The notes under the pieces were generated by a model. It saw nothing but the letters and a program-made list of their open reading frames with translations, ran no database searches and was not told where the DNA came from. From contig NZ_CP061379.1 of assembly GCF_015624505.1 (NCBI RefSeq), positions 5,146,001-5,210,000 on the forward strand: a DNA stretch of 64,000 nt, read 5' to 3'. Source of the stretch: Bradyrhizobium commune (lineage in GTDB: Bacteria; Pseudomonadota; Alphaproteobacteria; Rhizobiales; Xanthobacteraceae). The position numbers and the translations under genes were made by a program. Below are positions 1,969 through 59,909 of the stretch, one piece after another (within the stretch, counting starts at the first letter, position 1; each line of letters opens with the position of its first letter).

Positions 1969-3141
1969 TTACGACGCCGCGAGCTGTTCCTCGACCAGCT
2001 TGACCCAGTAGGACGTGCCGAAGACGATCGCCTCGTCGTTGAAATTGTAGGCGGGGTGATGCAGGCCGGCGCTGTCGCCGTTGCCGCAGAAGATGAAGGC
2101 GCCGGGGCGCGCTTCCAGCATGTAGGCGAAATCCTCGCCGCCCATCAGCGGCGGCATCTCGTGGACGTTGGTGTCGCCGGCAACCTGCTTGGCGATGCGC
2201 GTCGCCACCTCGGTCTCCGCCGCATGATTGTTCACCACGGGATAATTGCGCTTGTAGTGCAGGTCGATCTTCGCACCGGTGATCTGCGCCACGCCCGCCA
2301 CCACCTCGTGTACGCGTTTCTCGACGAGCTTGCGCACGTCGGCCGAGAGCGTGCGGATGGTGCCGCGCAGCTCCGCGGTCTGCGGGATCACGTTGCGGGC
2401 ATTGCCGGCGTGGAACTCGCAGATCGAGATCACGGCGGATTCCAGCGGATCGACGCTGCGCGAGACGATCGACTGCAACGCGGTGATCACCTGCGCACCA
2501 ACCAGGACGGAGTCGATACATTTGTGCGGGCGCGCGGCGTGGCCGCCGAGGCCTTCGATCTTGATGTCGACCTCGTCGGTCGCCGCCATGATCGGACCCG
2601 GCCGGATCGCGAACGAGCCGATCGGAATGCCGGGACCGTTGTGCATGCCGTAGACCTGCTCGATGCCGAAGCGCTCCATCATGCCGTCCTTGACCATGGC
2701 CGCGCCGCCGGCGCCGCCCTCTTCGGCCGGCTGGAAGATCACGATCGCGTCGCCGGCGAAATTGCGGGTCTCGGCGAGGTAGCGTGCAGCGCCGAGCAGC
2801 ATCGCGGTATGGCCGTCATGGCCGCAGGCGTGCATCTTGCCCGGGTTCCTGGAAGCGTAAGGCAGGTTGGTCTGCTCCTCGACCGGCAGCGCGTCCATGT
2901 CGGCGCGCAGGCCGATCACCTTGAGTCCCTCGCCCGCCGGCTTGTTGCCCTTGATCAGACCGACCACGCCGGTCTGGCCAATGCCGGTCACCACCTCGTC
3001 GCAGCCGAACTCGCGCAGACGGTCCGCGACGAATGCTGCGGTGCGGTGGACATCGTATAGCAGCTCGGGGTGCTGATGGATGTCCCGCCGCCAAGCCTGG
3101 ATATCGGGTTGAAGATCGGCGACGCGGTTCACGATGGGCAT
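1969..3141 (-). CDS. M20 family metallo-amidohydrolase (hippurate hydrolase-like)
   Basis: A 390-residue cytosolic enzyme of the M20D amidohydrolase family, which removes N-acyl groups from amino acids (hippurate, N-acetyl or indole-acetyl amino acids). Visible motifs are the HQHPEL opening, the metal-binding GLRADMDALP and MHACGHDGHTAMLLG loops (His and Asp ligands), the EEGGAGG glutamate loop, and a late GGEDFAYML motif with the C-terminal metal ligand. The ATG at 3141 (MPIVNRV) is preferred over an in-frame TTG twelve bases upstream. Substrate cannot be told from sequence. It is convergent with pit and divergent from the GMC oxidoreductase. Confidence 0.9.
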   Translation of the reverse strand: MPIVNRVADLQPDIQAWRRDIHQHPELLYDVHRTAAFVADRLREFGCDEVVTGIGQTGVVGLIKGNKPAGEGLKVIGLRADMDALPVEEQTNLPYASRNPGKMHACGHDGHTAMLLGAARYLAETRNFAGDAIVIFQPAEEGGAGGAAMVKDGMMERFGIEQVYGMHNGPGIPIGSFAIRPGPIMAATDEVDIKIEGLGGHAARPHKCIDSVLVGAQVITALQSIVSRSVDPLESAVISICEFHAGNARNVIPQTAELRGTIRTLSADVRKLVEKRVHEVVAGVAQITGAKIDLHYKRNYPVVNNHAAETEVATRIAKQVAGDTNVHEMPPLMGGEDFAYMLEARPGAFIFCGNGDSAGLHHPAYNFNDEAIVFGTSYWVKLVEEQLAAS

Positions 3142-3240
3142 GGAGGGTCTCAAGCTTTGTTGGAAATACAGGACTGTCTACCATGCAAGTGGCAGTCCAC
3201 CCAACAGCCCCATGCCGGGGCCTAGCCCTGTCCACCCGAC

Positions 3241-3321
3241 ATGGCCGGGCTTGTCCCGGCCATCCACGTCCGACTATTAGGACGGAAAGCGCGTGGATGC
3301 CCGGGACAAGCCCGGGCATGA
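3241..3321. repeat. Palindromic intergenic repeat (REP-like, Bradyrhizobium type)
   Basis: Two imperfectly inverted arms (3241-3268 and 3292-3321), built on atggccgggcttgtcccggc and its complement, flank a short centre. The element lies between divergent genes. It accidentally creates an in-frame N-terminal extension of the GMC gene, which should not be annotated as protein. Confidence 0.75.
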
Positions 3322-3343
3322 CGCCTGTTTGGGTGGAAGCAGA

Positions 3344-4963
3344 ATGCCAAGGCGGCTCGAAGGTGAGTTTGACTACGTTGTCGTGGGCGCCGGCACGGCG
3401 GGCTGCATCATCGCCAACCGCCTCTCCGCGGATTCCGGCCATCGCGTGCTGATCCTCGAGGCCGGCGGCGATGACAACTGGATCTGGTTCCACATCCCGG
3501 TCGGCTATCTCTTCGCGATCGGCAATCCGCGCTCGGACTGGATGTTCAAGACCGAGGCCGAGCCGGGTCTGAACGGCCGCGCGCTCGCCTATCCCCGCGG
3601 CAAGGTGATCGGGGGCTGCTCCGCGATCAACGCCATGATCTCGATGCGCGGACAGGCAGCCGACTACGATCACTGGCGTCAGCTCGGCATGACCGGCTGG
3701 GGCTATGACGATGTGCTGCCGCTGTTCAAGCGGCTGGAAGATCACTTCCTGGGCGCAAGCGAGCATCACGGCACCGGCGGCGGCTGGCGCATCGAGGCGC
3801 CGCGGCTGTCCTGGGAGGTTCTCGATGCCGTTGGCGATGCCGCAGAAGAAATGGGCATCAAACGCATCCCTGATTTCAACACCGGCGACAACGAAGGCAC
3901 AAGCTATTTCCACGTCAACCAGAAGCGCGGCCGGCGCTGGTCGTCGGCACGCGGCTTCCTCAAGCCGGCGCTGAACCGGCAAAATCTGCGGCTCGAGAAG
4001 CACGTCCTGGTCGATCGCCTGATCATCGAGCAGGGCCGCGCCACTGGCGTACGCTTCATCCAGAATGGCGAGATCATCGAGGCGCGCGCAAAGCGCGAGG
4101 TGATCCTCTCGGCCGGTGCGATCGGCTCGGTGCAGGTGCTGCATCGCTCGGGCATCGGGCCCGCCGACTGGCTGTCGCCGCTCGGCATCGACATCGTGAT
4201 GGACAAGCCCGGCATCGGCCACAATCTCCAGGACCACCTCCAGCAGCGCGCGATCTACAAGGTCGAGGGCGTGCGCACGCTGAACGAGACCTATTACAAT
4301 CTGTTCCGCCGCGGCCTGATGGGGCTCGACTACGCCTTTCGCCGTCGTGGGCCGCTGACCATGGCGCCGTCGCAGCTCGGCATTTTCACGCGATCCGACG
4401 CGACGCGTGCGCGCGCCAACATCCAGTTCCACGTGCAGCCGCTGTCGCTCGACAAGTTCGGCGATCCCCTGCACCGCTTTCCCGCGATCACGGTCAGCGC
4501 CTGTAATCTCCAGCCGACTTCGCGCGGCACTGTTCGGCTGCGCGCAGCAACGCCCGATGAAAAGCCGATCATCGCGCCGAATTATCTGTCGACCGACGAC
4601 GACCGCCAGGTCGGTGCCGACGCCATCCGCACCACGCGCCGGCTGATGCAGCAGAAGGCGCTGGCAAAGTATCGCCCGACCGAATATCTGCCCGGTCCCT
4701 CCGTTGGTGATGACGACGCCTCGCTGGCAAAAGCTGCCGGCGATATCGGCACGACCATCTTCCATCCGGTCGGCACCGCGAAGATGGGAACGGCGAACGA
4801 TCCGATGGCCGTGGTCGACGAGCGCCTGCGCTTCTACGGCCTCGGCGGCTTGCGCATCGTCGACGCCTCGATCATGCCGACCATCACGTCAGGCAACACC
4901 AACACGCCGACGGCGATGATCGCAGAGAAGGGCGCAGCGATGATTTTGGAGGATGCGAAGTAG
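3344..4963 (+). CDS. GMC family FAD-dependent oxidoreductase (choline dehydrogenase-like)
   Basis: A 539-residue flavoprotein. The N-terminus has the dinucleotide-binding GAGTAGC motif followed by LILEAGG. The GMC signatures are visible as PRGKVIGGCSAINAM and as a LSAGAIGSVQVLHRSG segment. The C-terminal substrate/FAD domain has TIFHPVGTAKMG with the catalytic His, and STSGNTN-like TSGNTNTPTAMIAEKGA. The family oxidises alcohols such as choline, aryl alcohols or polyethylene glycol. The ATG at 3344 is chosen because the upstream in-frame codons lie in the palindromic repeat. No bet neighbours are present, so a betaine role is not supported. Confidence 0.9.
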   Translation: MPRRLEGEFDYVVVGAGTAGCIIANRLSADSGHRVLILEAGGDDNWIWFHIPVGYLFAIGNPRSDWMFKTEAEPGLNGRALAYPRGKVIGGCSAINAMISMRGQAADYDHWRQLGMTGWGYDDVLPLFKRLEDHFLGASEHHGTGGGWRIEAPRLSWEVLDAVGDAAEEMGIKRIPDFNTGDNEGTSYFHVNQKRGRRWSSARGFLKPALNRQNLRLEKHVLVDRLIIEQGRATGVRFIQNGEIIEARAKREVILSAGAIGSVQVLHRSGIGPADWLSPLGIDIVMDKPGIGHNLQDHLQQRAIYKVEGVRTLNETYYNLFRRGLMGLDYAFRRRGPLTMAPSQLGIFTRSDATRARANIQFHVQPLSLDKFGDPLHRFPAITVSACNLQPTSRGTVRLRAATPDEKPIIAPNYLSTDDDRQVGADAIRTTRRLMQQKALAKYRPTEYLPGPSVGDDDASLAKAAGDIGTTIFHPVGTAKMGTANDPMAVVDERLRFYGLGGLRIVDASIMPTITSGNTNTPTAMIAEKGAAMILEDAK

Positions 4964-6645: not shown

Positions 6646-6772
6646 CATCTCAAACCAAGGCATCTCTGTCCTGCCCGGCCGGTGGTCCCACGCCGGCCGG
6701 GCTCGCGCGCCTTCGGTCAGGCCAAAAAACGAAACGACTTACCAAACGCAGCAAGAGGCAAAGCGAGAGGCG

Positions 6773-7321
6773 ATGCCCGTCAGCGACGATTTGCAGAAGG
6801 CGCAGCGCTTCCGCGAGGCGGCCTTGCCCTATCTCGACGACGTCTACACGCTCGCGCGCTATTTGCTGCGCGACGCCTCCGACGCCGAGGACGCGGTGCA
6901 GGAGTGCTATCTGCGCGCGCTGAAGCATTTTGACAGCTATCGTGGCCCGGCAATGAAGCCGTGGCTGTTCGCGATCCTGCGCAACGTCTGCAACGCCGAA
7001 TATGCAAGGCGCGCGCATTCGCATGCCGCGATCGAGGACACGCCCGGCGCCGCCGACCAGACGCCGATGTGGCAGGAGAGCGAGGCGAGCCCGGAAACCG
7101 AAGTGCTGCGCGGCCGGGATGCCGGCGCGATCCGCAAGCTGATTGACGCGCTGGCCGAGCCGTTCAAGGAAACTTTCGTGCTGCGGGAGATCAACAACCT
7201 GTCCTATCGTGAAATTGCAGAAGCCGTCGGCGCCCCCGTCGGCACCGTGATGTCCCGCCTCGCACGCGCCCGCGCCATGCTGCGCGCGGCCTGGATGGCG
7301 GAAGAGGAGCATTTGAGATGA
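6773..7321 (+). CDS. ECF RNA polymerase sigma factor
   Basis: 182 residues. Region 2 is visible as DVYTLARYLLRD...DAEDAVQECYLRALKHF. Region 4 is visible as FVLREINNLSYREIAEAVG followed by the helix-turn-helix VGTVMSRLARAR. The ATG at 6773 follows an AGAGG site; the in-frame extension back to 6638 overlaps the cupredoxin stop and is low-complexity, so it is rejected. Its last four bases overlap the start of the anti-sigma gene (ATGA), the usual arrangement for a sigma/anti-sigma pair. It probably transcribes its own cluster, but this is inferred only. Confidence 0.92.
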   Translation: MPVSDDLQKAQRFREAALPYLDDVYTLARYLLRDASDAEDAVQECYLRALKHFDSYRGPAMKPWLFAILRNVCNAEYARRAHSHAAIEDTPGAADQTPMWQESEASPETEVLRGRDAGAIRKLIDALAEPFKETFVLREINNLSYREIAEAVGAPVGTVMSRLARARAMLRAAWMAEEEHLR

Positions 7322-8082
7322 CCTGCGACGAAGCAAAGATCCTGCTTCACGCGCTGCTCGACAACGAGCTCGATGCCGGCCACGCGCGCGAGGTCGAAGC
7401 CCATATCGCAAGCTGCCCGTCCTGCGCAGCCGAGCTCGCGGCGCAGCGGGAGATGAAGCGTGTGCTGGCCGATACCAAGCTGGGCTATACGGCACCGGCG
7501 AGCCTGCGCGCCCGCATCGAGGCATCGCTGCCGCAAGCAAGACCGCAGCCAAGCCGGCGCTCCGTGCTGCGCGGTTTTGCGATGGGCTCTGCCGTCTCGG
7601 CGCTCGCCGCCTCGGGCGTCGTCGCTGTCGTGCTGCGCCAGGACGACCAGCAGCGCATCCTATCGGAGGTGGTCTCCGCCCACCTGCGCTCGCTCCAGGC
7701 CGGCCACCTCATCGACGTAGTCTCGACCGACCAGCACACGGTCAAGCCGTGGTTCAACGGCAAGCTCGACGTTGCGCCACCCGTGATCGATCTCACCGCG
7801 CAAGGCTTTACGCTGGTCGGCGGCCGGCTCGACTATATCGATGCACGCGCGATCGGCGCCGTCGTTTACAAGCGCCGGCAGCACGTCATCAACCTGTTCG
7901 TATCGCAGACCGCGAGCACCGAGCGTCGGCCGCCGAAGACCCAGACCATGCAGGGCTTCAACTGCCGCCGCTGGGGCGAGCGCGGCCTGAATTTCTGGGC
8001 CGTCAGCGACATCGGCGGCGACGAGCTCGCCGAGTTCGTCGACAAGTTCGAAGCAGCGATGAAGGCGAATGTGGAGGGGTAA
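7318..8082 (+). CDS. Zinc-finger anti-sigma factor with one transmembrane segment
   Basis: 254 residues. The N-terminus is a ZAS domain with H29-x3-C33-x2-C36, preceded by LHALLDNELDAG. A hydrophobic segment around 85-107 (after SRRSVLRGF) anchors it in the membrane, and about 145 residues form the periplasmic part. Start codon overlaps the sigma-factor stop. The family holds its cognate ECF sigma factor inactive until an envelope or redox signal arrives. Confidence 0.9.
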   Translation: MTCDEAKILLHALLDNELDAGHAREVEAHIASCPSCAAELAAQREMKRVLADTKLGYTAPASLRARIEASLPQARPQPSRRSVLRGFAMGSAVSALAASGVVAVVLRQDDQQRILSEVVSAHLRSLQAGHLIDVVSTDQHTVKPWFNGKLDVAPPVIDLTAQGFTLVGGRLDYIDARAIGAVVYKRRQHVINLFVSQTASTERRPPKTQTMQGFNCRRWGERGLNFWAVSDIGGDELAEFVDKFEAAMKANVEG

Positions 8083-8118
8083 TTGTCTCCGCCGTCATTG
8101 CTGAGATAGATCGCGAAC

Positions 8119-9510
8119 TTACGCCGACCGTCGCACCGCGTTGTCCACCAGCGTCTTGCCGAGCGACCAGATCGCGCCGGGGACCTTGTGGCTGCCGGCG
8201 ATGACGTCGTCGAAGGCGCGCTCGATCCAGTTACAGTCTTCTTCGGTGATGGTGAGCGGCGGCAGCAGCTTGATGGTGTGGCTGCCGTGACCGGCGACCT
8301 GGGTGAGGATCTTGTGATCCTTGAACAGCGGCACGGTGATGAGCTGGCAGAACAGACCCTTGTTGGCAGTCTCCAGCACGTTCCACGACGCCCGCAGGCG
8401 GAGTGACTTCGGCGGCCCGAACTCGATGCCGATCATCAGGCCCTTGCCGCGCACTTCCTTCATCAGCTCGTAGCCGGGCACCATGCGGGTCAGCGCGAGG
8501 CGAAGCTCGGCGCCGCGCTTGGCGGCGGACTCGATCAGCTTCTCGGATTCCATGACATCGAGCGTGGCAATGCCCGCGGCCATCGCCAGATCGTTCTTGG
8601 AGAAGGTCGAGCCGTGCACCACGGCGCGGTCCATCTGGTTGAAGATCTTGTCGAAGATGCTCTTGCGCGTCAGCACGGCGCCGACCGGCACGTGGCCGCC
8701 CGACAGCGACTTCGACAGCAGCACCATGTCGGGCTCGACATTCCAGTGCTCGACCGCAAGGAAGCGGCCGGTGCGGCCCATGCCGGTCTGGATCTCGTCG
8801 GCGACGAACAGCGTTCCGTATTTCTTGCAGAGCGCGGCCGCGCCCGGCAGGAACTCGTCGGTGGGCATGTTGACGCCCTTGCCCTGGATCGGTTCGACGA
8901 CGAAGGCCGCGACCTCGCGGGAGGCCAGCGCCTTTTCCAGCGCAGCGAGATCGTTGAACGGGATCGAGGTGCAGCCCGGCAGCAGCGGCTCGAAGCCGGT
9001 GCGGAAGTTCGAGTCGCCCGTCAGCGACAGCGCACCATAGGTCAGGCCGTGATAGCCGTGGGCGCAATAGACGATGCCCGGCCGGCCGGTAGCGCCGCGG
9101 GCGAACTTGATCGCCGCCTCGACGCATTCGGCGCCGGAATTGGCGAAGAACGCCTTGTCGAGATAGGGAACATATTTCAACAGCCGCTCGGCGAGCACGC
9201 CGGCGAGTACCGACACGTCGAACTGGACGAGATTGGGCAGGTCGGCGTCGATCACGCTTTTCAGCGCCTCGCGCATCACCGGATGATTGCGCCCGATCGC
9301 GAACACGCCAAAGCCGGACAACAGGTCGAGATAGCGCGCGCCCTCGCGGTCGTAGAGGTACTGCCCCTGCCCCTTCTGGAAGCCGACATCGTAGCCGATG
9401 GTCTTGAGGACCCGAACGAACTGCTCGTTCAGGTACCGATTATGCAGGGAGCTGCGCTGGGCCTGTCGGTCCGCGAACAGCTGAGACATGTCTGGATTTG
9501 GACTGTTCAT
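8119..9510 (-). CDS. hpnO: Class III aminotransferase, hopanoid side-chain aminotransferase HpnO
   Basis: 463-residue PLP enzyme of the ornithine/acetylornithine aminotransferase fold. PLP motifs are ANSGAECVEAAIK, the VADEIQTGMGRTG segment with the cofactor Asp, and SKSLSGGHVPVGA containing the Schiff-base Lys. It lacks arginine-pathway neighbours and lies beside hpnN and the hopanoid locus. In Rhodopseudomonas HpnO makes aminobacteriohopanetriol from the ribosyl/formyl hopane intermediate. Function as HpnO rests on family resemblance plus context. It is transcribed away from the DUF2147 gene. Confidence 0.85.
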   Translation of the reverse strand: MNSPNPDMSQLFADRQAQRSSLHNRYLNEQFVRVLKTIGYDVGFQKGQGQYLYDREGARYLDLLSGFGVFAIGRNHPVMREALKSVIDADLPNLVQFDVSVLAGVLAERLLKYVPYLDKAFFANSGAECVEAAIKFARGATGRPGIVYCAHGYHGLTYGALSLTGDSNFRTGFEPLLPGCTSIPFNDLAALEKALASREVAAFVVEPIQGKGVNMPTDEFLPGAAALCKKYGTLFVADEIQTGMGRTGRFLAVEHWNVEPDMVLLSKSLSGGHVPVGAVLTRKSIFDKIFNQMDRAVVHGSTFSKNDLAMAAGIATLDVMESEKLIESAAKRGAELRLALTRMVPGYELMKEVRGKGLMIGIEFGPPKSLRLRASWNVLETANKGLFCQLITVPLFKDHKILTQVAGHGSHTIKLLPPLTITEEDCNWIERAFDDVIAGSHKVPGAIWSLGKTLVDNAVRRSA

Positions 9511-17814: not shown

Positions 17815-18273
17815 TCAGATTTTCGCAACTGGCCGCCGCGCGACGAGGACGGTGTTGATGCATTGCAGCACTATTTCGCGCTTTTGATTGCGGAGGTGAA
17901 TTTGATTGCGGACGATACCTCGGTCGGAGTTCGACTTCGACTCGCGTCTCTCCAGAACGGCCACATCGAGATCAAGCTCGTCTCCCGGACGCACCGGGGT
18001 CGGCAACCTGAGTTCATCCCAGCCGAGCCCGGCCAGTATCCGGAGCGAATAGGGCTGTGCTCTGGGTAGCAAGCAGATAACTATCGCAAATGTGTGGGCC
18101 CCCGAGGCTGTTAGGCCTGCGAAGACCGAACTCACTGCAGCTGCCTCATCGATGTGAAAAGGCTGCGGGTCGTACTTTTTGGCAAATTCGATGATTTCGT
18201 CCTTTGAGACGAGATACGGGCCAGCCGTACGCAATTGGCCGACCTCAGCATCTTCAAAATATAGGATGGCCAT
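17815..18273 (-). CDS. MaoC-like (hot-dog fold) dehydratase
   Basis: 152 residues. MaoC family features are the FEDAEVGQ opening, the hydratase motif KKYDPQPFHIDEAAA with Asp and His, and the GLTASGAHTFA helix, followed by a RPGDELDLDVAVLERRESKS strand region. Members hydrate or dehydrate enoyl-thioesters. The ATG at 18273 is preferred over TTG at 18276. It sits isolated among RAYT repeats, without other fatty-acid genes, and was probably moved here with the accessory insert. Confidence 0.83.
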   Translation of the reverse strand: MAILYFEDAEVGQLRTAGPYLVSKDEIIEFAKKYDPQPFHIDEAAAVSSVFAGLTASGAHTFAIVICLLPRAQPYSLRILAGLGWDELRLPTPVRPGDELDLDVAVLERRESKSNSDRGIVRNQIHLRNQKREIVLQCINTVLVARRPVAKI

Positions 18274-18463
18274 CAATGATCCCTCGCGCAGATTTGGCTA
18301 AACAGGGAGTAACCTAGCTTATCCCGCCGCTCACGTCAGCAGGTCAGCTTTTTGGCCCTTTTCGGAAGTACCGCGACTTATGACTTAGGTCCGAAATGAA
18401 CGCCAAAGCGGACATCTGGCTCACGCGTTTTTCACGCGCTTGGTTCTCTTGGCGGATTCATGA

Positions 18464-19223
18464 TTACGGTGACAGTGCACTAAACTATTCATCATCGCCG
18501 CCATCGTCCCGACTTTGAGGCTTCGGTCCTCTCTTCTCGGGCTTGAGAGCCCGCCCGGTCAGTTTCTCCAGGCGGGCCATGAAGCGGTCGCCACCGAGTG
18601 GCCGGCCGATGCTTTCCGCGGCGCGCAGCCGGTCGAACAAATCGTCGTCCGGAACCTCGCCGAGCAGATCGGCGAAGCGCGGGAAGCGATCCCTGATCGG
18701 CGCCAGCGCAGTCACTCCATCGCGCTTGCCGCGCAGATGCGCGCGCGTGCTCGCCCAGCGCCAGTCCTGCGCCCGTGCGACCAGCCGGGCGCGCACCGGG
18801 TTGAGCGACACGTAGCGCAGCGCCGCCGCGAGATGCTCCTCGTCCATCGCGACCGCGCCGAACCGGCCCTGCCAGAAATGCCCGGTGCGGCTGCGTCGCG
18901 CCTGGATCGCGCCGGCATAAGAGCGATGCACCCGCGAAAGAGCGCGGCGCAGCCCGTCGGCATCGGACGGCACCAGGATCAGATGCACGTGGTTGGGCAT
19001 CAGGCACCAGGCCCACACCTCGACGCCGGCGGCTTTGCAATTCTCAGCGAGCAGGTCGCGATACAGCGCATAGTCGCCGTCCTCGAAGAACGTGCGGGCG
19101 CGGCCATTGCCGCGCTGGGTGACATGGTGGGGATGACCGGGGACGACGACGCGGGCGAGACGGGCCATGCCGCAATATGCACGCGGAAGCACGTGGAGTC
19201 AATTTAGTGCACTGTCACCGTAA
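18464..19223 (-). mobile_element. RAYT transposase element with 20-base terminal inverted repeats
   Basis: A 760-bp unit bounded by ttacggtgacagtgcactaa at the left (18464) and its inverse at the right (to 19223), containing one transposase gene. Additional copies of the same terminal repeat lie at 17728-17791 and about 19391-19411. This fits a REP-associated tyrosine transposase and its cognate repeats, although the ends resemble simple inverted repeats more than classical REP hairpins. Confidence 0.8.
18485..19168 (-). CDS. REP-associated tyrosine transposase (IS200-like, Y1 family)
   Basis: 227 residues. The N-terminus MARLARVVVPGHPHHVTQRGNGR is characteristic of RAYT/TnpA_REP proteins. 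The HUH metal motif is seen as MPNHVHLILVPS, and the conserved HFWQGRFGAVAMDEEHL and RYVSLNPVRARLV segments follow; the catalytic Tyr is expected in this last region. The enzyme cuts single-stranded DNA at REP repeats. The ATG at 19168 is chosen over an upstream ORF start. Confidence 0.92.
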   Translation of the reverse strand: MARLARVVVPGHPHHVTQRGNGRARTFFEDGDYALYRDLLAENCKAAGVEVWAWCLMPNHVHLILVPSDADGLRRALSRVHRSYAGAIQARRSRTGHFWQGRFGAVAMDEEHLAAALRYVSLNPVRARLVARAQDWRWASTRAHLRGKRDGVTALAPIRDRFPRFADLLGEVPDDDLFDRLRAAESIGRPLGGDRFMARLEKLTGRALKPEKRGPKPQSRDDGGDDE

Positions 19224-19413
19224 TTCAATTCTCAGCGAGCAGGTCGCGATACAGCGCATAGTCGCCGTCCTCGAAGAACGTGCGGGCGCGGCCATTGCCG
19301 CGCTGGGTGACATGGTGGGGATGACCGGGGACGACGACGCGGGCGAGACGGGCCATGCCGCAATATGCACGCGGAAGCACGTGGAGTCAATTTAGTGCAC
19401 TGTCACCGTAATT
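19038..19413. repeat. 188-bp tandem duplication covering the 5' end of the transposase gene
   Basis: 19038-19225 and 19226-19413 are essentially identical over 188 bases. The unit holds the first codons of the transposase (read leftward) plus the right terminal repeat. The second copy carries a truncated, presumably inactive, transposase start. Confidence 0.92.
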
Positions 19414-49935: not shown

Positions 49936-52900
49936 TCATTGCAGGAGCGGGGTTCGCAAGTCGAGGGTCAGCGGAAATTCATTTGTGCGTTCCTCCGGCG
50001 GCGGCTGCATCGGACCCGGCGTATGGCCATGGTCCTGGAAGCGCGCCAGACGCCGCGCCTCGGCCTCATAGGTGTTGACGGGCTTGGTGTCGTAGCTGCG
50101 CCCGCCGGGATGGGCGACGTGGTAGACGAAGCCGCCGAGCGAACGGCCGTTCCAGGTGTCGATGAGGTCAAAGGTCAGCGGCGCGTGAACCGGAATGGTC
50201 GGGTGCAGGCCGGAGGCCGGCTGCCAGGCCTTGAAGCGGACGCCGGCCACGGCCTCCGCCGAGCGGCCGGTCGAGGTCATCGGCAGACGACGACCGTTGC
50301 AGGTCACGATATGGCGACCCTCGACGAAGCCCTCCGCTTTGACCTGAAGGCGCTCGACCGAAGAATCGACATAGCGCACGGTGCCGCCGGCCGAGCCTTC
50401 CTCGCCGAGCACATGCCAGGGTTCCAAAGCCTGCCGTAGCTCCAGCGTCACGCCGCCGTGGTGGACGCGACCGAAGGCGGGGAAGCGGAATTCGAGCTGG
50501 GCCAGGTACCATTCCGGCTCGAACGGATAGCCGGACTTCTTCAGCTCGGAGAGCACGTCCAGAAAATCTTCCCAGATGAAATGCGGCAGCATGAAGCGGT
50601 CATGCAGCGCCGTGCCCCAGCGCACGAACTTGCCCTGTTGCGGCTCGCGCCAGAATTTTGCGATCAGCGCGCGGATCAGGAGCTGCTGCGCCAGCGACAT
50701 GCGCGGATCCGGCGGCATTTCGAGCGCGCGGAATTCGACCAGACCGAGTCGCCCCGTGGTGCCGTCCGGCGAATAGAGCTTGTCGATGCAGATCTCGGCG
50801 CGGTGGGTGTTGCCGGTGATGTCAACGAGCAGATGCCGGAACAGCCGGTCGACCAGCCACAGTGGCGTCTGGTAGCCCGGCGGCGGCACGTGCGAGAGCG
50901 CGATCTCGAGCTCGTAGATGCTGTCGTGGCGGGCTTCGTCGATGCGCGGCGCCTGACTGGTCGGACCGATGAAGAGGCCCGAGAAGAAGTAGGATAGCGA
51001 CGGATGCCGCTGCCAGTACAGCACCAGGCTCTTCAACAGATCGGGCCGGCGCAGGAACGGCGAATCCTGCGGGCTGGAGCCGCCGATGACGACGTGATTG
51101 CCGCCGCCGGTTCCGGTATGGCGGCCGTCGACCAGGAATCGGTTGGCGCCGAGGCGCACCTTGCCCGCATCCTCATAGAGACCCGAGGTGATGTCGACCG
51201 CGTCGCGCCAATTCTTGGCCGGCTGGATGTTGACCTCGATGACGCCGGGATCGGGCGTCACCTTGATGACCTCGATGCGCGGATCGAACGGTGGCGGATA
51301 ACCCTCGACATGGACCTGGAGCTGCATCTCCTCGGCCGTGGCTTCGAGCGCCGCGATCATTTCGAGGTAGTCCTCGATGCGCTCGACCGGCGGCATGAAG
51401 GCGCAGATCACGCCGTCGCGGACCTCGACCGACAGCGCAGTACGGACGGGGACGGACGTGTTGAGCTGCTCGGGCGCCACCCGCGGCGGCGGCGATTCCG
51501 GGCGCGCGGGGAGACTGAACACCGGCAGCTTGCCGCGCGCCTCCATCGGATCCTGCTCGACGATGTAAGGATATTGATTGGGCGGGACGTGGCCGAGCGA
51601 GTCGAGCGGCAGGCGCAGGCCGAGCGGTGAATCGCCAGGCATCAGGAACAGATGATTGCGCCGGAGTTGCCAGCGCTCGCTGCGCCAGCGAGGTGGCGCG
51701 TTCCAGCGCTGCACCGGCAGCACGAAGCCGCGCGGCGTGTTGAGACCCTGGTCGAACACCCGCGCCATCCGCGCGCGTTCTTCCGGGTTGGATAATTTGG
51801 AGTCGGACGGATCGACGTCGACGGGAAGCTCGGCCTCCTTGTGGAGCCAATAGGCAGTGTCCTCATAGGCCGGCATGATGTAGCCGGGGTCGAGCCCGAG
51901 CCGCAACGCCGCACCCTCCATGAAGGTGTCGGCATCCTTCGCCTGCGCTGGCCGCGGATTTTCGATCTTGGCGATGAGGTCGGCGTTCTTCCAGATCGGC
52001 ACGCCGTCCTTGCGCCAATAGAGACCGAAGGCCCAGCGCGGCAGGCTCTCGCCGGGATACCATTTGCCCTGGCCGAAATGCAGCAATCCGCCCGACCCGA
52101 AGCGCGAGCGCAGGCGGCGGATCAGATCGTCGGCGAGTGCGCGCTTGGTCGGACCGACAGCTTCCGTATTCCACTCCGCCGCCTCGAGATCGTCGACCGA
52201 GACGAAGGTCGGCTCGCCGCCCATGGTGAGCCGCACGTCCTGGGCCGTGAGATCGCCGTCGACCTGCTCGCCGAGATCGTTGAGCCGCGTCCAGGATTCG
52301 TCCGAGAACGGTTTTGTGATGCGCGGCGCCTCGCGGATACGCTTCACGCTCATATCGAACGCGAACTCGACCTCGGCAAAGCCGGCGCCGCCGGAGATCG
52401 GCGCGGCGGAGCGATAATGCGGCGTGGCCGCGACGGGGATGTGCCCCTCGCCTGCCAGCATGCCGGAGGTCGCGTCGAAGCCGATCCAGCCTGCGCCGGG
52501 CAGATAGACCTCGGCCCAGGCGTGCAGATCCGTAAAATCGTTCTCCACCTCGGGCGGTCCCTCGATCGGATCGATGTCGGGACGGATCTGGATCAGATAG
52601 CCGGAGACGAAGCGGGCCGCGAGGCCGAGATGACGCAGCGTCTGGATCAGGAGCCATGCAGAGTCGCGGCACGAGCCGGCACCGGAGGACAGCGTCTCCT
52701 CCGGCGTCTGCACGCCGGGCTCCATGCGGATGATGTAACGGACGTGCTTCTGAAGCTCGCGATTGAGATCGACCAGGAAGTTGACGGTGTTCGGGGCTTC
52801 GTGCGGGATCGAGTCGAGAAATTTCGCGAACAGGCGATCGGCCTTGATGGTCTCGAGATAAGGGGCGAGCTCCGTCTTCAGGTCTTTGGTGTATTCGAAC

Positions 52901-53208
52901 GGGAAGCTGTCCGCATAGGGCTCGACGAAGAAGTCGAACGGGTTGACCACGGTCATCTGCGTCGTGAAATCGACCTCGAACTTCAGCTCCGTGGTCTTCT
53001 CCGGGAAGACGTAGCGGGCCAGCCAATTGCCCTGCGGGTCCTGCTGCCAATTCACGAAATGATTGGCCGGGGTGACCTTGAGCGAATAGCTCAGGATCGG
53101 CGTCCGCGTATGCGGCGCCGGCCGCAGGCGGATGGTCTGCGGGCCAAGATCGATCGGACGGTCGTATTTGTAGTGCGTGACGTGGTGTAATGCGACGTAG
53201 ATCGACAC
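49936..53208 (-). CDS. Transglutaminase-like protein with DUF2126 C-terminal region
   Basis: 1090 residues. N-terminal transglutaminase domain with C180 ([10 protein letters not shown]), H229 (DLHAWAEVY) and D245 (WIGFDATSG), followed by a long DUF2126 domain (about 300-1090). The first gene of the DUF2126 / CP-ATP-grasp-alpha-E / transglutaminase set; GTG start at 53208. In comparative analyses these genes are conserved together and predicted to synthesise or tag peptides; the product is not known. Confidence 0.92.
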
Positions 53209-53343
53209 GGGTTACGGTGCTCCAGCAGCTTTTTTGAGCAGAACACCTGACGTGATCGCGATCAAGCACTAACAACGGGCAGACCGTGCCTATGCAAGGT
53301 GCGGGCCGAGCGGTTGTAGGACTTGTCTGGTGCGCTGGCTAAC

Positions 53344-53487
53344 GCTCCCCTCCGGCTCCCTCTGCGGAAGAAGGTGGCGCGAAGCGCTAGATGAGGGGTT
53401 CTCTCCACTTGCCAGACCGTTCGTGAGGACGGAGACTCCTCACCCGGCTTCGCTTTGCGAAGCCACCCTCTCCCGCAAGGAGAGGAG
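53344..53487. repeat. Intergenic inverted repeat, family shared with 39778-39930 (copy 2)
   Basis: Arms built on aaggtggcgcgaagcgctag ... gaagccaccctctcccgcaa, matching the 39778-39930 element. It lies at the boundary between the transglutaminase cluster and the AT-richer island. Confidence 0.8.
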
Positions 53488-53833
53488 GTATATTGATGGC
53501 TCGAATCTGCGCCAGTTTCGACCAAAATGCGCCCTCACATTTGCTCCACAGATTCGGATTACCGACATCTGCTGTCACGTGTTTCGCCAAACCGCACGAC
53601 TCGGATTGCGTTGCTCCCATATGGAAAGGACGCAACAAGGGGATATGGTCTAACCGTAGATTTTCTCTAGTTGCAGTTGCGTCACGGTAAATTTCCTGCA
53701 ATTTTCTCAAGCGGGCAAATCCTGCTACGGACGCAAGATCTTTTGTTTATCGGCGCCCCGTCGATGAGCGTTATTGAACGCCGCTAGGAAGCGCTTCGTG
53801 GCATTCCTGGTCGCTACATTTTGTTCAGATCCA
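53488..53833 (+). other. AT-richer leader of the STAND gene
   Basis: About 346 bases, distinctly less GC-rich than the flanking genes. No gene, tRNA end or insertion-sequence end was recognised. A short inverted pair (ccatatgg ... ggatatgg) occurs around 53620-53647. The promoter of the large gene should be here. Confidence 0.45.
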
Positions 53834-56800
53834 ATGATATCCGAGAGAACAGAAAAACTCCTCCTGTTGGTCAGCGCCATCGTAAGCGCCCTAGTAGCAA
53901 TTGTGGGTGGAGCAACAGATCTTTTCAAGAAACTCGCGGCTTTAGCAGTAGATATTAGAGGGACGCCTCCGTTAATTTTTGGGCTCATCTATTCTGCATT
54001 CTTCGCGTTATCAATTTGGCTGATTATAAAGTGGAGATCCCGCAGCTCCAAGCTTTTGAAGCCAGATGCCTTTCGGCTAGATCGAGACAACGTAGACCAC
54101 CTTGTTGGGCGGACCGACGATACCGAGATCCTTCTGCAGCAATGCCTCTTTAAGCAAATCACATTTTTGGAGGGCGAATCCGGATCAGGAAAATCGGCCT
54201 TGATTAGGAGCGGTTTGTTACCGAGGTTAAAAGGCAGTGATTTAATCGTTCCGCTCTTGTTGCCAGACCTTTGGGTCGACCAATGGGAGCGTGGGCCCAT
54301 GCAGGCGCTAATGATCGCACTGAGGAACAATGCAAGCCTCGGTCAATCTAGTGACCTAAACGATAAGAAGTCCAATCTCTTCGCTTCTTCGACCGATATC
54401 GAAAATTGGCTCGCATCCCTGCACGATTTGAGAGCGAAAACGGCCCTCATCATTTTTGATCAGTTTGACGACTACCAGGCTCGTAACCGAGATCGGTTTC
54501 TGAAGCAAAAAACTTGGATCGACCCAACTACGTTGCGTCGGCAGAATCGATTCTGGGAAATGATTGCTCGCTTGCTCGAAGCAGAGAAAGTGAAGTGTCT
54601 TTTCGTAACACGCAGCGATACTGCCGGCGGCTTCAGCTCGGTACAATTTCTGGGGCCTGTTGAGGCCTTGCGACTTGATCGAGTCCCTACACCGTATATC
54701 GCAGAACTTATAAATAGCATAACAAGAGGAAAACCAGACGCCCCCGTGATAGCTGAGCCGGAAGCCGGCTGGAATAAGCTCCAAGAACGAATTGTACGGG
54801 ACGTCTCGCAGCAAGATGTTGTGCTACCTCAGCAACTCAACACTATGCTTCGAGGTATCCAAGGCCTCAAATCTCTGAGTGTAGCCGAATACGACAAAGC
54901 GGGAGGTGCCAGCGGCATAGAGGCTCTGTATGTCGAGCGCCAAATCGCTGGCGCCGCACGGAAGTCTGGACTGGAAAGCAGCCTGATTCTACCGATGCTG
55001 GTTGACTTGATCGATCCTATCAATGCGTCCAAGACGCGCTCCCGCTCGAAGGCCCTCCTCGCAAAAAAATGCAATGCTGTTCATGAAGATACTAAAACGC
55101 TAGCAAAGTTGGAGGTCGTCCTAACGGAACTAGAGCGTGGTGAGTTAATTCGAGCCGAAAGTGATCCCGACAAGAACACTGAAGTCTATCGTCTCGACCA
55201 CGACTATCTCACTCGCGGAGTTGCTGCTGCCGAGCGGCGTGCGAATAAGTGGCGCTACGTTCTTGAGGACGGTTCAAAGTCATTCGAAAATGCCGGGACG
55301 TCTGCAAATCGCTGGCGCGCGTTGCTTCCAGCCTCCGTGCAAGTTCGACTTGCTTGGGAACGCTTGCGTGGCAACGTTCGCTATGGCCAGCAGCAACTCT
55401 ATGCGCTAGCAAGTCTTCTTCGACTTGTGCCTTTAGCAGCCGTTCTGGTCGCAACAGCGGTCGGGATATTCCAGATCAAGCACTTTCGCTATGAAGAGGC
55501 GGTGCGGAAGCGAGCTCAAGAAATTTGGGTGAAATTTGAATTCATCGACGGGATCAGCGATCAGGAACGAGACGCCGCATGGATGCTGGCAAGCGAACCC
55601 GATCCAAATGTCAGATTGGAGTTCGTTCGCCAGATGATGACGACTCCCGAGTACGCAGTGCGTCTACTGCGCAGCCCTGAGTTGGTCACCCAAGCGCTTG
55701 TCCCAACTAATCTCATTGCGCGGCGAAAGCTCGAGCCAACGGTCGTCGAATTTCTGAAAAATAAGCAGCGATACGGTGTCATCGAGATTGGCACGATATC
55801 GATCGCCCGCCAGCTCGGAAATCCTGTCCCGCTGGACACAGGCGCATTGGTAGAAGCAACAATAACTGCCGACAACAATCAAGTGCCGGTACTGCAAGAG
55901 GCGTTCGACACCTTCGTGAAGCAAGTTGGGGCTCAGAATCCGGCTTTCCTCATGCAGCAGATCGTAAATGCAATCACACTAAAAAGCTCTCTGGGCTCCT
56001 CGCTAAATCGAATGTTTGACTCACTCTCGTTGCTGATAAGCGAACAAGATAGCGAACGGTTGGAAGCTCAGGTCATTTCGTCGGTTCTTGCGGTTACTGA
56101 TGGAGACCAACTCACAAGCCTTAGAGTGTTTGCTAGAACGCTTACGCCAAAACTGACGTCCCAAGAATTCTTAAAGTCACAGGCAATACGAGCCATCAAC
56201 GGTGTAAATTCAACTCTTGATTACGATCAACATCGTGCACTTGAAGAAGTGCTCGAATTGCTAAAGTCACAACTTACCCCAATAAATTCAAGCAGCTTGA
56301 TCGAGTCGATTATGTCCGCGCTATCGCAGACAAACGAGGTCTACAAACTTGGCACACTGAGTCGAATGCTCTCCGTCGCAGGCTTGCCCGCGCACATCGC
56401 AGACGCTCGTGCCTTGGCTCTCGCGGTTATTGACGGACTGAGAGTGGGAGAGACAAACAAAGCCCTCTTTTCCGATCTGGAAATCGTTAGACCTCTGCTA
56501 AGCGAAGACGGGGCCTATACAGTTGCTGAATCTGCGATTTCTGCCATCGACCAGGAGGGCACGACCTACATCAAGCAGAACTTACAGAAAGGGTTTTCCC
56601 TTATAATTCCATCATTGAATTCAGCCGCTGTGAGAAAGCTTGCCGACAGCAATTTGGCTGCCATCAACGAAACTCAAGACTATTGGACTGTCGCGGTTTT
56701 AGCAGACTCAGTTATCGCACTTAGCCTAAGACTCAGTACAGATGAGCTTGCGATTATGGCGAAGTCGTTGGTTGAAGCCGCGAAGAGTCATGACGGATAT

Positions 56801-58000
56801 CAAAGAGACGGATATGCCAAAATCCTCGCCAGCGTATACGCGCACCTGGAAGAATCCGGAAAAGCTAGTGTGGAATCCAATATTATCCGCACAGCAGAAA
56901 CTGCGTCTGACAGAGACCGGCTGCTGTTTCTTCTTTCAATTGCTCAACAGCTCGATGAAAATAACGTTCGTTGGCTTACTAAGCCGCTGACAGACTTAAT
57001 GCAGACAAATGGCGATGCGGTCGGCTTGCTGATGGATGCGTTTCTTGTGGTTGGGCGATCTTTGAGCGATCGCGATCGCGAGGTGCTAGCAGATAGCATT
57101 TCGCGCAATATCTATCGTGCCGCGAACTCAAATAGCTACCTCCGACCATATGTGATTGCCAACATCGTGGATAGATCGTTTGTGAAGAGAGACAAAATTT
57201 CAGGCGCCGCTGCGTATTTTCTCACGCGGTCTCTGCCTACAATTCGCAGCGATTATGAAAGCTTTCGGCGGGCTGCTGATATATCTGAGGTGATTTCGCC
57301 ACATCTGACACCCGAGGCGGCTGCTGCACTGAACAAAGCAATTGTCGAGTCCTTTTCAAGAGCGCAGGGCACAGCACAATGTAGTTTGTTGAGTCGAGCC
57401 ATTGCCGCTTTGGCTCCTGTCTTGGATGAGACCGAAGCGCATGCTCAGGCCATTTCGGCAGTTACGTTGATCAGAGGACGTGACCGGTCCGACCAAGCAA
57501 CTGGACTAGCCGACGCATTCAGTAAGCTTGCGCCCCGCATGAGAGCTAGCGACGTCAAAGATACAATTTATTCCTTATACAAATTGATGAGCGAAACAAA
57601 ACAATGGTGGCAGATTGGAGCGCTGGCGCAGGCTACCGTGACCGTCGCGCCTAACATGGATGTTGAGGTGGCTCGGCAATTTTCTGAAAAGCTGTTGGGC
57701 TTGATTGATGAGCAGCCAAATACACCTTTGGCGACCTTGCTGGTGGCTGTGGATCGAAAATTGCCTTGGAATGAGCGACTGAGATCACTAGCAACCGCTC
57801 TTAAATCCCCCAATGTCTATGGCAGTTCGCGCACGATGATCGTGGAAGCGATTGCAGAAAATCCTGATGCACGACGAATCTCTGGCAAAATCGATACATG
57901 GTCGATCGCGCAATGGCTTCAAACAGACAACGCCATCGATATGGAATCTCCTCTGCAAGGAAAGCAGTCTTCGGAGAGAACATATAGACCTTTGCACTAG
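53834..58000 (+). CDS. Membrane-anchored STAND-type NTPase with long helical C-terminus
   Basis: 1388 residues from ATG at 53834; an in-frame TTG (53774) and a GTG (53798) are alternatives and no good ribosome site decides. Two N-terminal TM helices (about 9-26 and 46-66) precede a P-loop GESGSGKS (114-121), a Walker B-like TALIIFDQFDDY (about 204-214) and a FVTRSDTAGGFS sensor segment. A winged-helix-like stretch (VYRLDHDYLTRGVAAAERR, about 451-469) follows, then another TM helix (about 529-546), then ~830 residues of repeated helices with no recognised domain (HEAT/ARM-like in look). This matches nSTAND-class conflict/defence ATPases by architecture. Its AT-richer codon use differs from neighbours, pointing to transfer. 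Sensor target and effector are unknown. Confidence 0.75.
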   Translation: MISERTEKLLLLVSAIVSALVAIVGGATDLFKKLAALAVDIRGTPPLIFGLIYSAFFALSIWLIIKWRSRSSKLLKPDAFRLDRDNVDHLVGRTDDTEILLQQCLFKQITFLEGESGSGKSALIRSGLLPRLKGSDLIVPLLLPDLWVDQWERGPMQALMIALRNNASLGQSSDLNDKKSNLFASSTDIENWLASLHDLRAKTALIIFDQFDDYQARNRDRFLKQKTWIDPTTLRRQNRFWEMIARLLEAEKVKCLFVTRSDTAGGFSSVQFLGPVEALRLDRVPTPYIAELINSITRGKPDAPVIAEPEAGWNKLQERIVRDVSQQDVVLPQQLNTMLRGIQGLKSLSVAEYDKAGGASGIEALYVERQIAGAARKSGLESSLILPMLVDLIDPINASKTRSRSKALLAKKCNAVHEDTKTLAKLEVVLTELERGELIRAESDPDKNTEVYRLDHDYLTRGVAAAERRANKWRYVLEDGSKSFENAGTSANRWRALLPASVQVRLAWERLRGNVRYGQQQLYALASLLRLVPLAAVLVATAVGIFQIKHFRYEEAVRKRAQEIWVKFEFIDGISDQERDAAWMLASEPDPNVRLEFVRQMMTTPEYAVRLLRSPELVTQALVPTNLIARRKLEPTVVEFLKNKQRYGVIEIGTISIARQLGNPVPLDTGALVEATITADNNQVPVLQEAFDTFVKQVGAQNPAFLMQQIVNAITLKSSLGSSLNRMFDSLSLLISEQDSERLEAQVISSVLAVTDGDQLTSLRVFARTLTPKLTSQEFLKSQAIRAINGVNSTLDYDQHRALEEVLELLKSQLTPINSSSLIESIMSALSQTNEVYKLGTLSRMLSVAGLPAHIADARALALAVIDGLRVGETNKALFSDLEIVRPLLSEDGAYTVAESAISAIDQEGTTYIKQNLQKGFSLIIPSLNSAAVRKLADSNLAAINETQDYWTVAVLADSVIALSLRLSTDELAIMAKSLVEAAKSHDGYQRDGYAKILASVYAHLEESGKASVESNIIRTAETASDRDRLLFLLSIAQQLDENNVRWLTKPLTDLMQTNGDAVGLLMDAFLVVGRSLSDRDREVLADSISRNIYRAANSNSYLRPYVIANIVDRSFVKRDKISGAAAYFLTRSLPTIRSDYESFRRAADISEVISPHLTPEAAAALNKAIVESFSRAQGTAQCSLLSRAIAALAPVLDETEAHAQAISAVTLIRGRDRSDQATGLADAFSKLAPRMRASDVKDTIYSLYKLMSETKQWWQIGALAQATVTVAPNMDVEVARQFSEKLLGLIDEQPNTPLATLLVAVDRKLPWNERLRSLATALKSPNVYGSSRTMIVEAIAENPDARRISGKIDTWSIAQWLQTDNAIDMESPLQGKQSSERTYRPLH

Positions 58001-58071
58001 GATTTAGCGATCAACCTTACGAGGATGGGGTTAACTTCTTGAAGTCCATTTGTGGTGAGTAATACTGCTGC

Positions 58072-58338
58072 TTAGCCAATTCCGCATTTGAGGCGGTATG
58101 CGCCATCGCGCTTGAGATCCCCCGACTTAAATGTTTCGCTGCGAACCCGCTCTAGGACAAGTCGATCCGCCAAGGGTCTCAGCGGCTCCATTAGGTCGAA
58201 CACCAATGCAGCGCGATTCTTGTCGCAGAGGCGAGCGCTCCCAAAAGGAATCAAGCTCACATCGCTAAGAACTACGGCTGACGATATTAAGCAGGCGTTA
58301 GCGCAGGAACTCGCGCGATCAAATGACGATCCGCGTAA
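58072..58338 (-). pseudogene. Relic C-terminus of a cas1-like gene
   Basis: The open minus-strand frame (from 58338 to TAA? stop ending at 58072) contains LVFDLMEPLRPLADRLVL followed by SETFKSGDLKRDGAYRL. The FDLMEPLRP-x-D-R block and the D-L-x-x-DG-x-xRL tail are the C-terminal active-region signature of CRISPR-associated integrase Cas1. No start or N-terminal domain is present, and no other cas gene or array is nearby, so it is a remnant at best. It is convergent with the STAND gene. Identification is from motif memory only and should be treated as moderate. Confidence 0.5.
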
Positions 58339-58385
58339 TTACTTAAGCAGGCGACATGCCGTTGGCTGATACCGCCGCAGCGCGT

Positions 58386-59909
58386 TTACATCGTTGCCCC
58401 AAGCACCCAGGGCGCGAACTCGGCGCCGCCGAAATCGAAGCTCTCGCTCTTGGTCGGCTGGCCGGAGGCGGTCTTGAGGATAAGATCGAAGATGCGCTGG
58501 CCACACTGATGGACGCTCTCCTCGCCTTCGAGGATGGTGCCGCAATTGACGTCCATGTCGTCTTCCATGCGCTTGTACATGGGCGTGTTGGTGGCGAGCT
58601 TGATCGACGGCGCCGGCTTGCAGCCGAACACACTGCCGCGACCGGTGGTGAAGCAGACGAGGTTGGCGCCGCCGGCGACCTGCCCCGTCGCCGCGACCGG
58701 ATCGTAGCCGGGCGTGTCCATGAACACGAAGCCGCGCTTGGTCACCGGTTCGGCGTAGCGCAAGACATCGACGAGATTGGTGGTGCCGGCCTTGGCCATG
58801 GCGCCGAGCGATTTTTCCAGAATGGTGGTGAGGCCGCCGGCCTTGTTGCCGGGGCTCGGATTGGCGTTCATCTCGGCGCCCTCGCGCTCGGTGTATTCGT
58901 CCCACCAGCGCATCAGATCGACCAGCTTCTCGCCGACCTCGCGGCTGACCGCGCGGCGCGTCAGCAGATGCTCGGCGCCGTAGGTCTCGGGCGTCTCCGA
59001 CAGGATCACGGTGCCGCCGTGACGGACGATGAGATCGCTGGCCGCACCCAGCGCCGGGTTGGCGGACACGCCGGAATAACCGTCCGAGCCGCCGCATTGC
59101 AGCGCCACGGTCAGTTCGCTCACCGGCACGGATTCGCGCTTGACCTTGTTCGAGTCAGCCAGCGCCTCGCGCACGAAGGCGATGCCGGCTTCGACCGTCT
59201 TGCGGGTGCCGCCGACCTCCTGGATGTCCATCGCACGCAGGCGGCCGGCGAGCTTCTGCTCCTCCATCAGGCCGCCGATCTGGTTCACTTCGCAGCCAAG
59301 GCCGAGCACGATCACATGAGAGAAGTTCACGTGCCGCGCATAGCCGCCGAGCGTGCGGCGGAGCAGCGCGAGCGGTTCGTTCTGCGTCATGCCGCAGCCG
59401 GTCTTGTGGGTCAGCGCGACCACGCCATCGACATTGGGGAAATCAGCGAGCGGGTTGTCGCCGGTGAAGGGATTTTTCTTGAAGACATCGGCGACGAGAC
59501 CAGCGACATGCGCGCTGCAATTCACCGAGGTGAGAATGCCGATATAGTTGCGGGTAGCGACGCGGCCGTCCGGGCGTCGGATGCCCTCGAACGTCGCCGG
59601 CAGATCGAAATTCGGCGTCGGCTTGACGTCGGCGCAATAGGCATAGTCCTTAGCAAAATCGCCCATGCCGATGTTCTGCACGTGCACATGCTGGCCCGGC
59701 GCGATGGCCTGGGTCGCAAAGCCGATGATCTGGCCGTAGCGGATGACCGGCTCGCCGACCGCGATGGGCTTGATCGCCACCTTGTGGCCGGAGGGAATGC
59801 GCTCGACCGTGGTGACGCCGTCGGCCACCACCGTCCCCGGCGGCAGGCTCGCGCGCGCAGTCAGCACGCCATCATCGGGATGCAGGCGGATGACGGGGCT
59901 GATGGTCAT
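58386..59909 (-). CDS. UxaA family altronate/galactarate dehydratase-like enzyme
   Basis: 507 residues. N-terminal SAF domain (~10-95, VIRLHPDDGVLTARASLP) and a long C-terminal dehydratase domain with HKTGCGMTQNEP, LGLGCEVNQIGG, GGSDGYSGVSANPALG and CTTGRGSVFGCKPAPS segments; the conserved cysteines would hold iron or an Fe-S site. The family dehydrates sugar acids such as altronate or galactarate. The downstream aldolase could accept a related keto-acid, but the surrounding hpa genes argue for a separate pathway. Confidence 0.92.
   Translation of the reverse strand: MTISPVIRLHPDDGVLTARASLPPGTVVADGVTTVERIPSGHKVAIKPIAVGEPVIRYGQIIGFATQAIAPGQHVHVQNIGMGDFAKDYAYCADVKPTPNFDLPATFEGIRRPDGRVATRNYIGILTSVNCSAHVAGLVADVFKKNPFTGDNPLADFPNVDGVVALTHKTGCGMTQNEPLALLRRTLGGYARHVNFSHVIVLGLGCEVNQIGGLMEEQKLAGRLRAMDIQEVGGTRKTVEAGIAFVREALADSNKVKRESVPVSELTVALQCGGSDGYSGVSANPALGAASDLIVRHGGTVILSETPETYGAEHLLTRRAVSREVGEKLVDLMRWWDEYTEREGAEMNANPSPGNKAGGLTTILEKSLGAMAKAGTTNLVDVLRYAEPVTKRGFVFMDTPGYDPVAATGQVAGGANLVCFTTGRGSVFGCKPAPSIKLATNTPMYKRMEDDMDVNCGTILEGEESVHQCGQRIFDLILKTASGQPTKSESFDFGGAEFAPWVLGATM

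Follow-up and report, generated by a model that had tools for sequence, protein, structure and literature searches.

The window analysed here is a stretch of 64,000 nucleotides from Bradyrhizobium commune (contig NZ_CP061379.1), in which the gene at 53834..58000 (+ strand) encodes a membrane protein of 1388 amino acids (aa). Judged from its sequence, this is a STAND NTPase of the nSTAND1 clade, akin to the immune switches of animals and plants, with intact catalytic motifs and a winged helix. The gene is tentatively read, with a confidence slightly short of even, as a horizontally acquired, single-gene, membrane-embedded STAND switch in which a periplasmic solenoid would act as sensor and an N-terminal hairpin as output, the whole serving as a lone-gene abortive-infection receptor. 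In the mechanism proposed, the solenoid would sample the envelope, a ligand on the tail would release the ADP-locked ATPase, exchange for ATP would drive oligomerisation in the membrane, and the N-terminal hairpins thus gathered may breach the inner membrane or halt growth. We infer this sequence of ligand, ATP exchange, oligomerisation and N-terminal output by analogy with the STAND class. The most likely trigger would be phage attack, and defence against phages appears the likeliest function, given the class of the protein, its patchiness and its lone mobile insertions. The putative defence role is held with moderate confidence, while a pore-type output of the hairpin is weakly suggested.

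The open reading frame (ORF) extends from 53774 (TTG) to 58000, and the ATG at 53834 agrees with the starts of homologues in an alignment of family members. The alignment holds eight members, namely the window protein and seven homologues, with the broken or cut loci L007, L010, and L012 left out. The NTPase domain occupies residues 85-461 (54086..55216; Pfam PF20703, E=1.8e-17), where the nSTAND1 match reaches 64.5 bits against a curated cut-off of 27.1. The same cut-off is passed by homologues L011, L049, L005, L006, and L008, and not by the broken L007 piece. Within the P-loop GESGSGKS (residues 114-121; 54173..54196), G114, G117, G119, K120, and S121 are invariant in 8/8 members, while E115 and S118 vary. 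Equally invariant is FDQFDDYQ (residues 208-215), which overlaps the Walker B region IIFDQFDDY (residues 206-214; 54449..54475). The same holds for the TR.D pattern of VTRSD (residues 258-262; 54605..54619; T259, R260, D262) and the LxHDxL pattern of LDHDYL (residues 454-459; 55193..55210; L454, H456, D457, L459), which are a sensor-1-like and a winged-helix motif, respectively. A frame of 1388 codons with family-wide motifs is not due to chance, and a frame artefact or decayed gene was ruled out on the same grounds. The first-pass annotation had described a 1388-residue STAND-type NTPase with this P-loop and an FDQFDDY block, and both the gene and its class are confirmed, the former by the open frame and the invariant motifs, the latter by Pfam and by fold matches.

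Those fold matches were obtained for the modelled core (residues 73-471), for which the structure alignment contained 50 rows, all over these residues and none covering the N-terminal hairpin. With Foldseek the core matches NLR-type STAND ATPases and also ORC/Cdc6. Plant NLR resistosomes are among the matches, including NRC4, Sr35, and 6j5t/6j6i, the last being the first plant resistosome entries. In a PDB sequence search with the core, nearly all matches were to the P-loops of ATPases (best E 0.00066), and YbbJ was matched once, weakly. Three hydrophobic segments exceed the threshold of 1.6 for the 19-residue Kyte-Doolittle mean. Segment 1 (residues 9-27; 53858..53914; mean 2.61) forms the first arm of the N-terminal hairpin, segment 2 (residues 47-65; 53972..54028; 2.39) is followed by a basic, inside-positive stretch, and segment 3 (residues 528-546; 55415..55471; 2.27), here called TM3 for the third transmembrane (TM) segment, lies between ATPase and tail. 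In the tail no other segment exceeds 1.6, the maximum being 1.48. AlphaFold models a helix at residues 2-39, with a predicted local distance difference test score (pLDDT) mostly <50 for residues 1-31, and places TM3 within helix 518-567. The three membrane segments noted initially are thus present, but not as a single module, since two form the hairpin and the third separates ATPase from tail. The hairpin-ATPase-TM core is common to the eight aligned members, which belong to several phyla, and the tail differs among them (39-aa repeats or pentapeptides).

The C-terminal tail (residues 548-1388; 55475..57997) is about 841-842 residues long after TM3 and all helical in the AlphaFold model, in line with the helical tail of ~830 residues first annotated. 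Its description there as uncharacterised in kind required correction, as 39-residue repeats are recognisable both by self-comparison and by a position-specific scoring matrix (PSSM). Self-comparison of the window tail peaks at a lag of 39 (z 5.3 in the first run, 4.8 in the second), and 0/1000 shuffles in the second run reached that score at any lag tested. The same lag is the peak in L049, L050, L011, L007, and L009, and not in L008. Regular 39-residue units are carried by the tails of L011 and L007, and a PSSM built from them located 9 units in the window tail, compared with a shuffle mean of 0.9 and a maximum of 4 (40 shuffles). It located 6 units in L049, 3 in L050, and 5 in L009, with no signal in L008 (2 vs 1.2). 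These counts derive from round 0, since later rounds take in window units and become circular. The window repeats are missed by a profile hidden Markov model made from those of L011 and L007; hhalign between repeat tails gave a probability of 98, a score which repetition can inflate. Built on 7 alignment rows (pLDDT 77; predicted TM-score, pTM, 0.49), the AlphaFold tail is a solenoid made of helices alone, in which every-second-helix spacing from the ninth helix onwards has a median of 39 residues, with 20/31 spacings within 37-41. Foldseek places it with the HEAT-type solenoids transportin 3, Kap121, SF3b, and CAND1 at TM-scores of about 0.2-0.4, indicating the general type only. The window tail is accordingly modelled as a degenerate array of 39-residue helix pairs in a HEAT-like solenoid, and in the model the superstructure-forming C-terminal region of nSTAND1 proteins is present, with a putative sensing role. 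The tails of L005 and L006 consist of pentapeptide repeats, unrelated by profile to the 39-residue tails, and tail lengths in the family vary over 190-840 residues. A core that is kept while the tail varies suggests a receptor pattern. For the 39-residue repeat, no Pfam model reached cut-off in the proteins scanned, and the L011 repeats had neither a PDB sequence relative nor a plasmid match.

The gene lies in an insert (53293..58385) between a DUF2126/transglutaminase gene and a galactarate/altronate dehydratase (UxaA-like) gene. Its GC content is 0.505, whereas 102 equally long segments from the rest of the 64 kb average 0.646 (sd 0.015, lowest 0.611). At third codon positions its GC content is 0.518, while six neighbouring genes reach 0.83-0.87. 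The UxaA-like flank was found in all 36 genus genomes examined, and the locus was fetched from 15 of the 35 others (L055-L069). Both flanks align in 15/15 fetched relatives and the nSTAND gene is missing from every one of them, with a flank spacing of 22-3099 bp. This agrees with the AT-richer island originally described; homologues at the same locus in every related genome would have spoken for a housekeeping gene, and a housekeeping ATPase was ruled out by the absence of the gene from this locus in the 15 relatives fetched. The window gene is thus assigned, on composition and locus comparison, as a recent, lone, horizontal acquisition. In 5/15 relatives the interval is a spacer of 22-125 bp only; in 7/15 it measures about 2.0-2.2 kb and holds a chemoreceptor gene (MCPsignal tested in L059, the others by eye); in 2/15 it holds a class 3 lipase gene and in 1/15 transposase-like genes (by eye). 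Judged partly by eye, this interval is a site of gene turnover across the genus. Within the insert, two short ORFs (53330-53653 and 58088-58369) had no Pfam or PADLOC match. No direct 10-mer was common to the two border stretches tested, no tRNA was found in the window and no Rfam family within 52800-58800, and promoter and terminator matches were fewer than the shuffle means.

The distribution of the family is very patchy. A scan of genome contigs gave nine homologue loci (9/18 pattern stretches; 8/9 metagenome-assembled genomes, MAGs), from Bradyrhizobium huanghuaihaiense, Phycisphaerae, Anaerolineae, Thiosymbion, Caulobacter, Niveispirillum, Chromatiaceae, Verrucomicrobia, and KSB1. The B. 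huanghuaihaiense locus was taken as the same record as the copy in genome G058, and the genus search added one further homologue, in G143. Identity to the window core (620 aa) is 56, 49, 33, 33, 33, 30, and 25% for the seven aligned homologues. In the genus, matches at E<=0.001 occur in 6/265 genomes, of which 3/265 are clear (the window's own, G058 at 1.9e-206, and G143 at 5.0e-174); the other three (8.8e-5 to 2.6e-4) are different nSTAND1 proteins. With the window genome included, matches were found in 2/100 relatives (the other being G058), in 2/385 genomes of the class (the other at 2e-6), and in 2/398 of the phylum at E<=1e-10 (the other 2.2e-11 over 127 positions). At E<=1e-15 the order gave 1/397, the window genome. 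Around the verrucomicrobial homologue 1/288 genomes matched, the homologue's own. The searches in the larger sets scored only about 2-6 candidates per genome, so that misses are possible. Neither the 50,697 phage records nor the 72,556 plasmid records gave a tblastn match at 1e-5, and viral contigs gave none with protein or profile; a phage or plasmid gene was rejected on these grounds. The G058 homologue likewise sits alone in a low-GC insert (0.516 vs 0.654), directly after uvrB (gene name by eye). From the uvrB end to the next matched flank there are 58-1239 bp without a homologue in 7/7 fetched genomes, the window's own included, and UvrB itself was found in 12/12. That the gene was inserted alone on two separate occasions suggests that it moves on its own. 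The G143 homologue stretch has a GC content of 0.586. A RES/Xre toxin-antitoxin pair lies within 9 kb at that locus, as do a resolvase and an integrase-core gene. The stretch also holds two cyclase-like genes with weak PycC (Pycsar cyclase) matches, Guanylate_cyc being shown for one. The L050 coordinates of the resolvase, cyclase-like, and RES/Xre genes are 1326-1892, 2105-4045, 6694-8214, and 18145-19340.

The flank after the second segment has a net charge of +3 or +4 in 8/8 members, which would place the ATPase inside; with a third segment between ATPase and tail, the sensor would then lie outside the cytoplasm. TM3 exceeds the hydrophobicity threshold in 8/8 members (segment 1 in 5/8, segment 2 in 7/8), and its ATPase side is the more positive by net charge in 6/8 members and in 3/3 control nSTAND1 proteins with a TM segment at the same place. 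Cysteine is rarer in tails, at 5/3154 vs 11/2294 residues in five alphaproteobacterial proteins (P=0.04) and 15/4567 vs 26/3658 in all eight (P=0.017). Moreover, the L051 tail, judged by eye, closes with a linker rich in Pro, Thr and Ser and then a small domain containing two Cys residues, features common in extracytoplasmic proteins. From these family signals a cytoplasmic ATPase and a periplasmic tail are predicted with moderate confidence. Several observations weigh against the favoured reading. The window TM3 flanks are reversed (+1 before, +3 after) and those of G058 are tied by net charge; by the count of lysine plus arginine alone, 5/8 follow the rule and the window protein, G058, and L005 are reversed; the L011 tail alone holds 7 cysteines; and the window protein had no PADLOC or NCBIfam match at E<=0.001. 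The same STAND receptor could instead keep its tail in the cytoplasm, with TM3 not crossing or the segments only anchoring, and sense phage components inside as Avs does. The reversed and tied flanks speak for this arrangement, as do Avs3 (8dgc, at rank 39) and other cytosolic STANDs among the Foldseek matches of the core, and the absence of any TM segment from L054, an nSTAND1 relative in the class. Avs5, too, acts at membrane-associated entry sites, and no TM segment is mentioned in the part of PMC12931631 available. Against it stand the hydrophobicity of TM3 throughout the family, the net charges of members and controls, and the L051 tail end, and we regard a cytoplasmic tail as a serious but unlikely arrangement.

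A STAND protein of this build might also serve envelope-stress or developmental signalling with no conflict role, for example by relaying the condition of the periplasm to a partner in the cytoplasm. Transcription regulators are known among STANDs, MalT being one, and the top Foldseek match of the core is one that we take to be MalT. No defence gene was recognised adjoining the window gene, and a lipoprotein-like partner gene occurs in two lineages. In the Phycisphaerae and Anaerolineae MAGs (L005:7129-9648 and L006:778-3369), a conserved gene of 840-864 aa stands on the same strand 307 bp before the homologue in both. Aligned over 872 columns, the two genes agree at 42%; they have weak Ig-like matches below threshold and a start that by eye resembles that of a lipoprotein, and are candidate partners of the pentapeptide-tailed homologue. 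However, a physiological regulator would not usually be so patchy or occur as low-GC insertions of one gene at different sites, and the Pfam list of the window protein contains no DNA-binding family; a signalling role is judged rather improbable. An addictive or selfish toxin-like gene, in which a membrane-damaging protein is checked by an unlinked, unrecognised or self-inhibitory element, would fit a lone mobile gene with an N-terminal hairpin, the two short adjoining ORFs, and the RES/Xre pair, resolvase and integrase-core gene of G143. A large conserved ATPase and tails of 190-840 residues exceed the needs of a toxin, and this explanation is very improbable.

Among known systems, the closest are nSTAND1-TM-repeat proteins of the genus (L051, L052, L053), which share with the window protein the ATPase class, a single hydrophobic segment following the NTPase, and a superstructure-forming tail. 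L053:7913-11425 is a TIR-nSTAND1-TM-WD40 protein of a congener, and the same topology rule would make its propeller extracytoplasmic. L052 is nSTAND1-TM-TPR, the TPR match being below the Pfam cut-off, and L051:8485-11349 is nSTAND1-TM-39-aa repeats, with the period of the window tail (lag 39, z 6.7). The window NTPase is divergent from them, at 64 bits compared with 267-284, and its N-terminal slot contains two membrane segments, whereas theirs contains nothing or TIR. Since the TIR protein, a control, has an effector in this slot, the hairpin there is the best effector candidate. An N-terminal effector and C-terminal sensor, as assigned in the first-pass annotation, correspond to the standard reading of the STAND layout. 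The suggestion that the architecture may be undescribed could hold for the exact hairpin version, no description of a hairpin-nSTAND1-TM-39-aa-repeat family having been found in searches of open-licence papers. It does not extend to the wider layout of effector, nSTAND1, TM segment and repeats, which by sequence comparison is already known in the genus, the membrane hairpin in the effector slot being what differs here.

In plant NLRs the N-terminal helices reach the membrane on activation and the leucine-rich-repeat sensors are cytoplasmic. The resistosomes share the STAND ATPase fold of the window core, whereas the N-terminal segments of the window protein are already of membrane type and its tail is HEAT-like. 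With Avs (AVAST) the tripartite effector-STAND-sensor layout is common, while the membrane segments and the predicted extracytoplasmic tail set the window protein apart. PMC12931631 states the tripartite layout for the STAND class and reports that the Walker motifs and C-terminal helices of Avs5 are needed. In PMC10907252, NACHT and nSTAND1 proteins are putative antigen sensors of multicellular bacteria and putative conflict systems, and the NACHT and CLec domains of one target of diversity-generating retroelement (DGR) 3 are predicted to be periplasmic. Those sensors carry lectin-like variable domains and DGRs, and their likeness to the window protein is that of STAND conflict-type proteins. 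Furthermore, nSTAND1 is named as a clade in counter-invader systems in PMC8195603, and membrane-associated conflict systems with extracellular domains are described in PMC7159879.

A bolder extension, which we consider doubtful, is an outside-in bacterial transmembrane NLR. In such a receptor a periplasmic arm with interchangeable repeats (HEAT-like or pentapeptide) would detect an attack by phage or on the envelope, either before DNA enters or while it does so; a single helix would signal to the cytoplasmic STAND ATPase, and ring assembly would make the hairpins a pore, all from one mobile gene. The phage proteins bound by characterised antiphage STANDs, Avs3 for example, are produced within the cell, and in the matched NLR structures sensor and ATPase are on the same side of the membrane. 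If true, a sensor across the membrane would combine the logic of NLRs with that of Toll-type receptors in a single polypeptide and make a response possible before phage DNA is expressed. With one hairpin-ATPase-TM core, different tails and a lone-gene setting in a soil genus, the family offers a clean test case. The 39-residue repeat, for which Pfam models stay below cut-off in the proteins scanned, is also placed in a context by it.

Homologue neighbourhoods are weak support for defence at best. Just downstream of the broken Thiosymbion homologue lies a dynamin-like GTPase (L007:4970-6466; Dynamin_N 5.4e-13, marginal LeoA), and a DNA methylase gene lies about 7 kb from the L011 homologue. No PADLOC match was convincing among the window neighbours: at 0.01, eight ORFs there and two at the G058 locus gave nothing beyond weak matches of regulator type, all of one MarR-like gene. 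For the window protein itself, no PADLOC match was to an Avs model, and up to E=1 the single match was Aga_TIR-PNTD1-PNTD2 (E=0.028). Finally, a C-terminal cap at about residues 1326-1373 (57809..57952, + strand) can be discerned by eye from a W ... D ... P pattern, and its outline resembles, also by eye, the tails of L049, L011, and L007.

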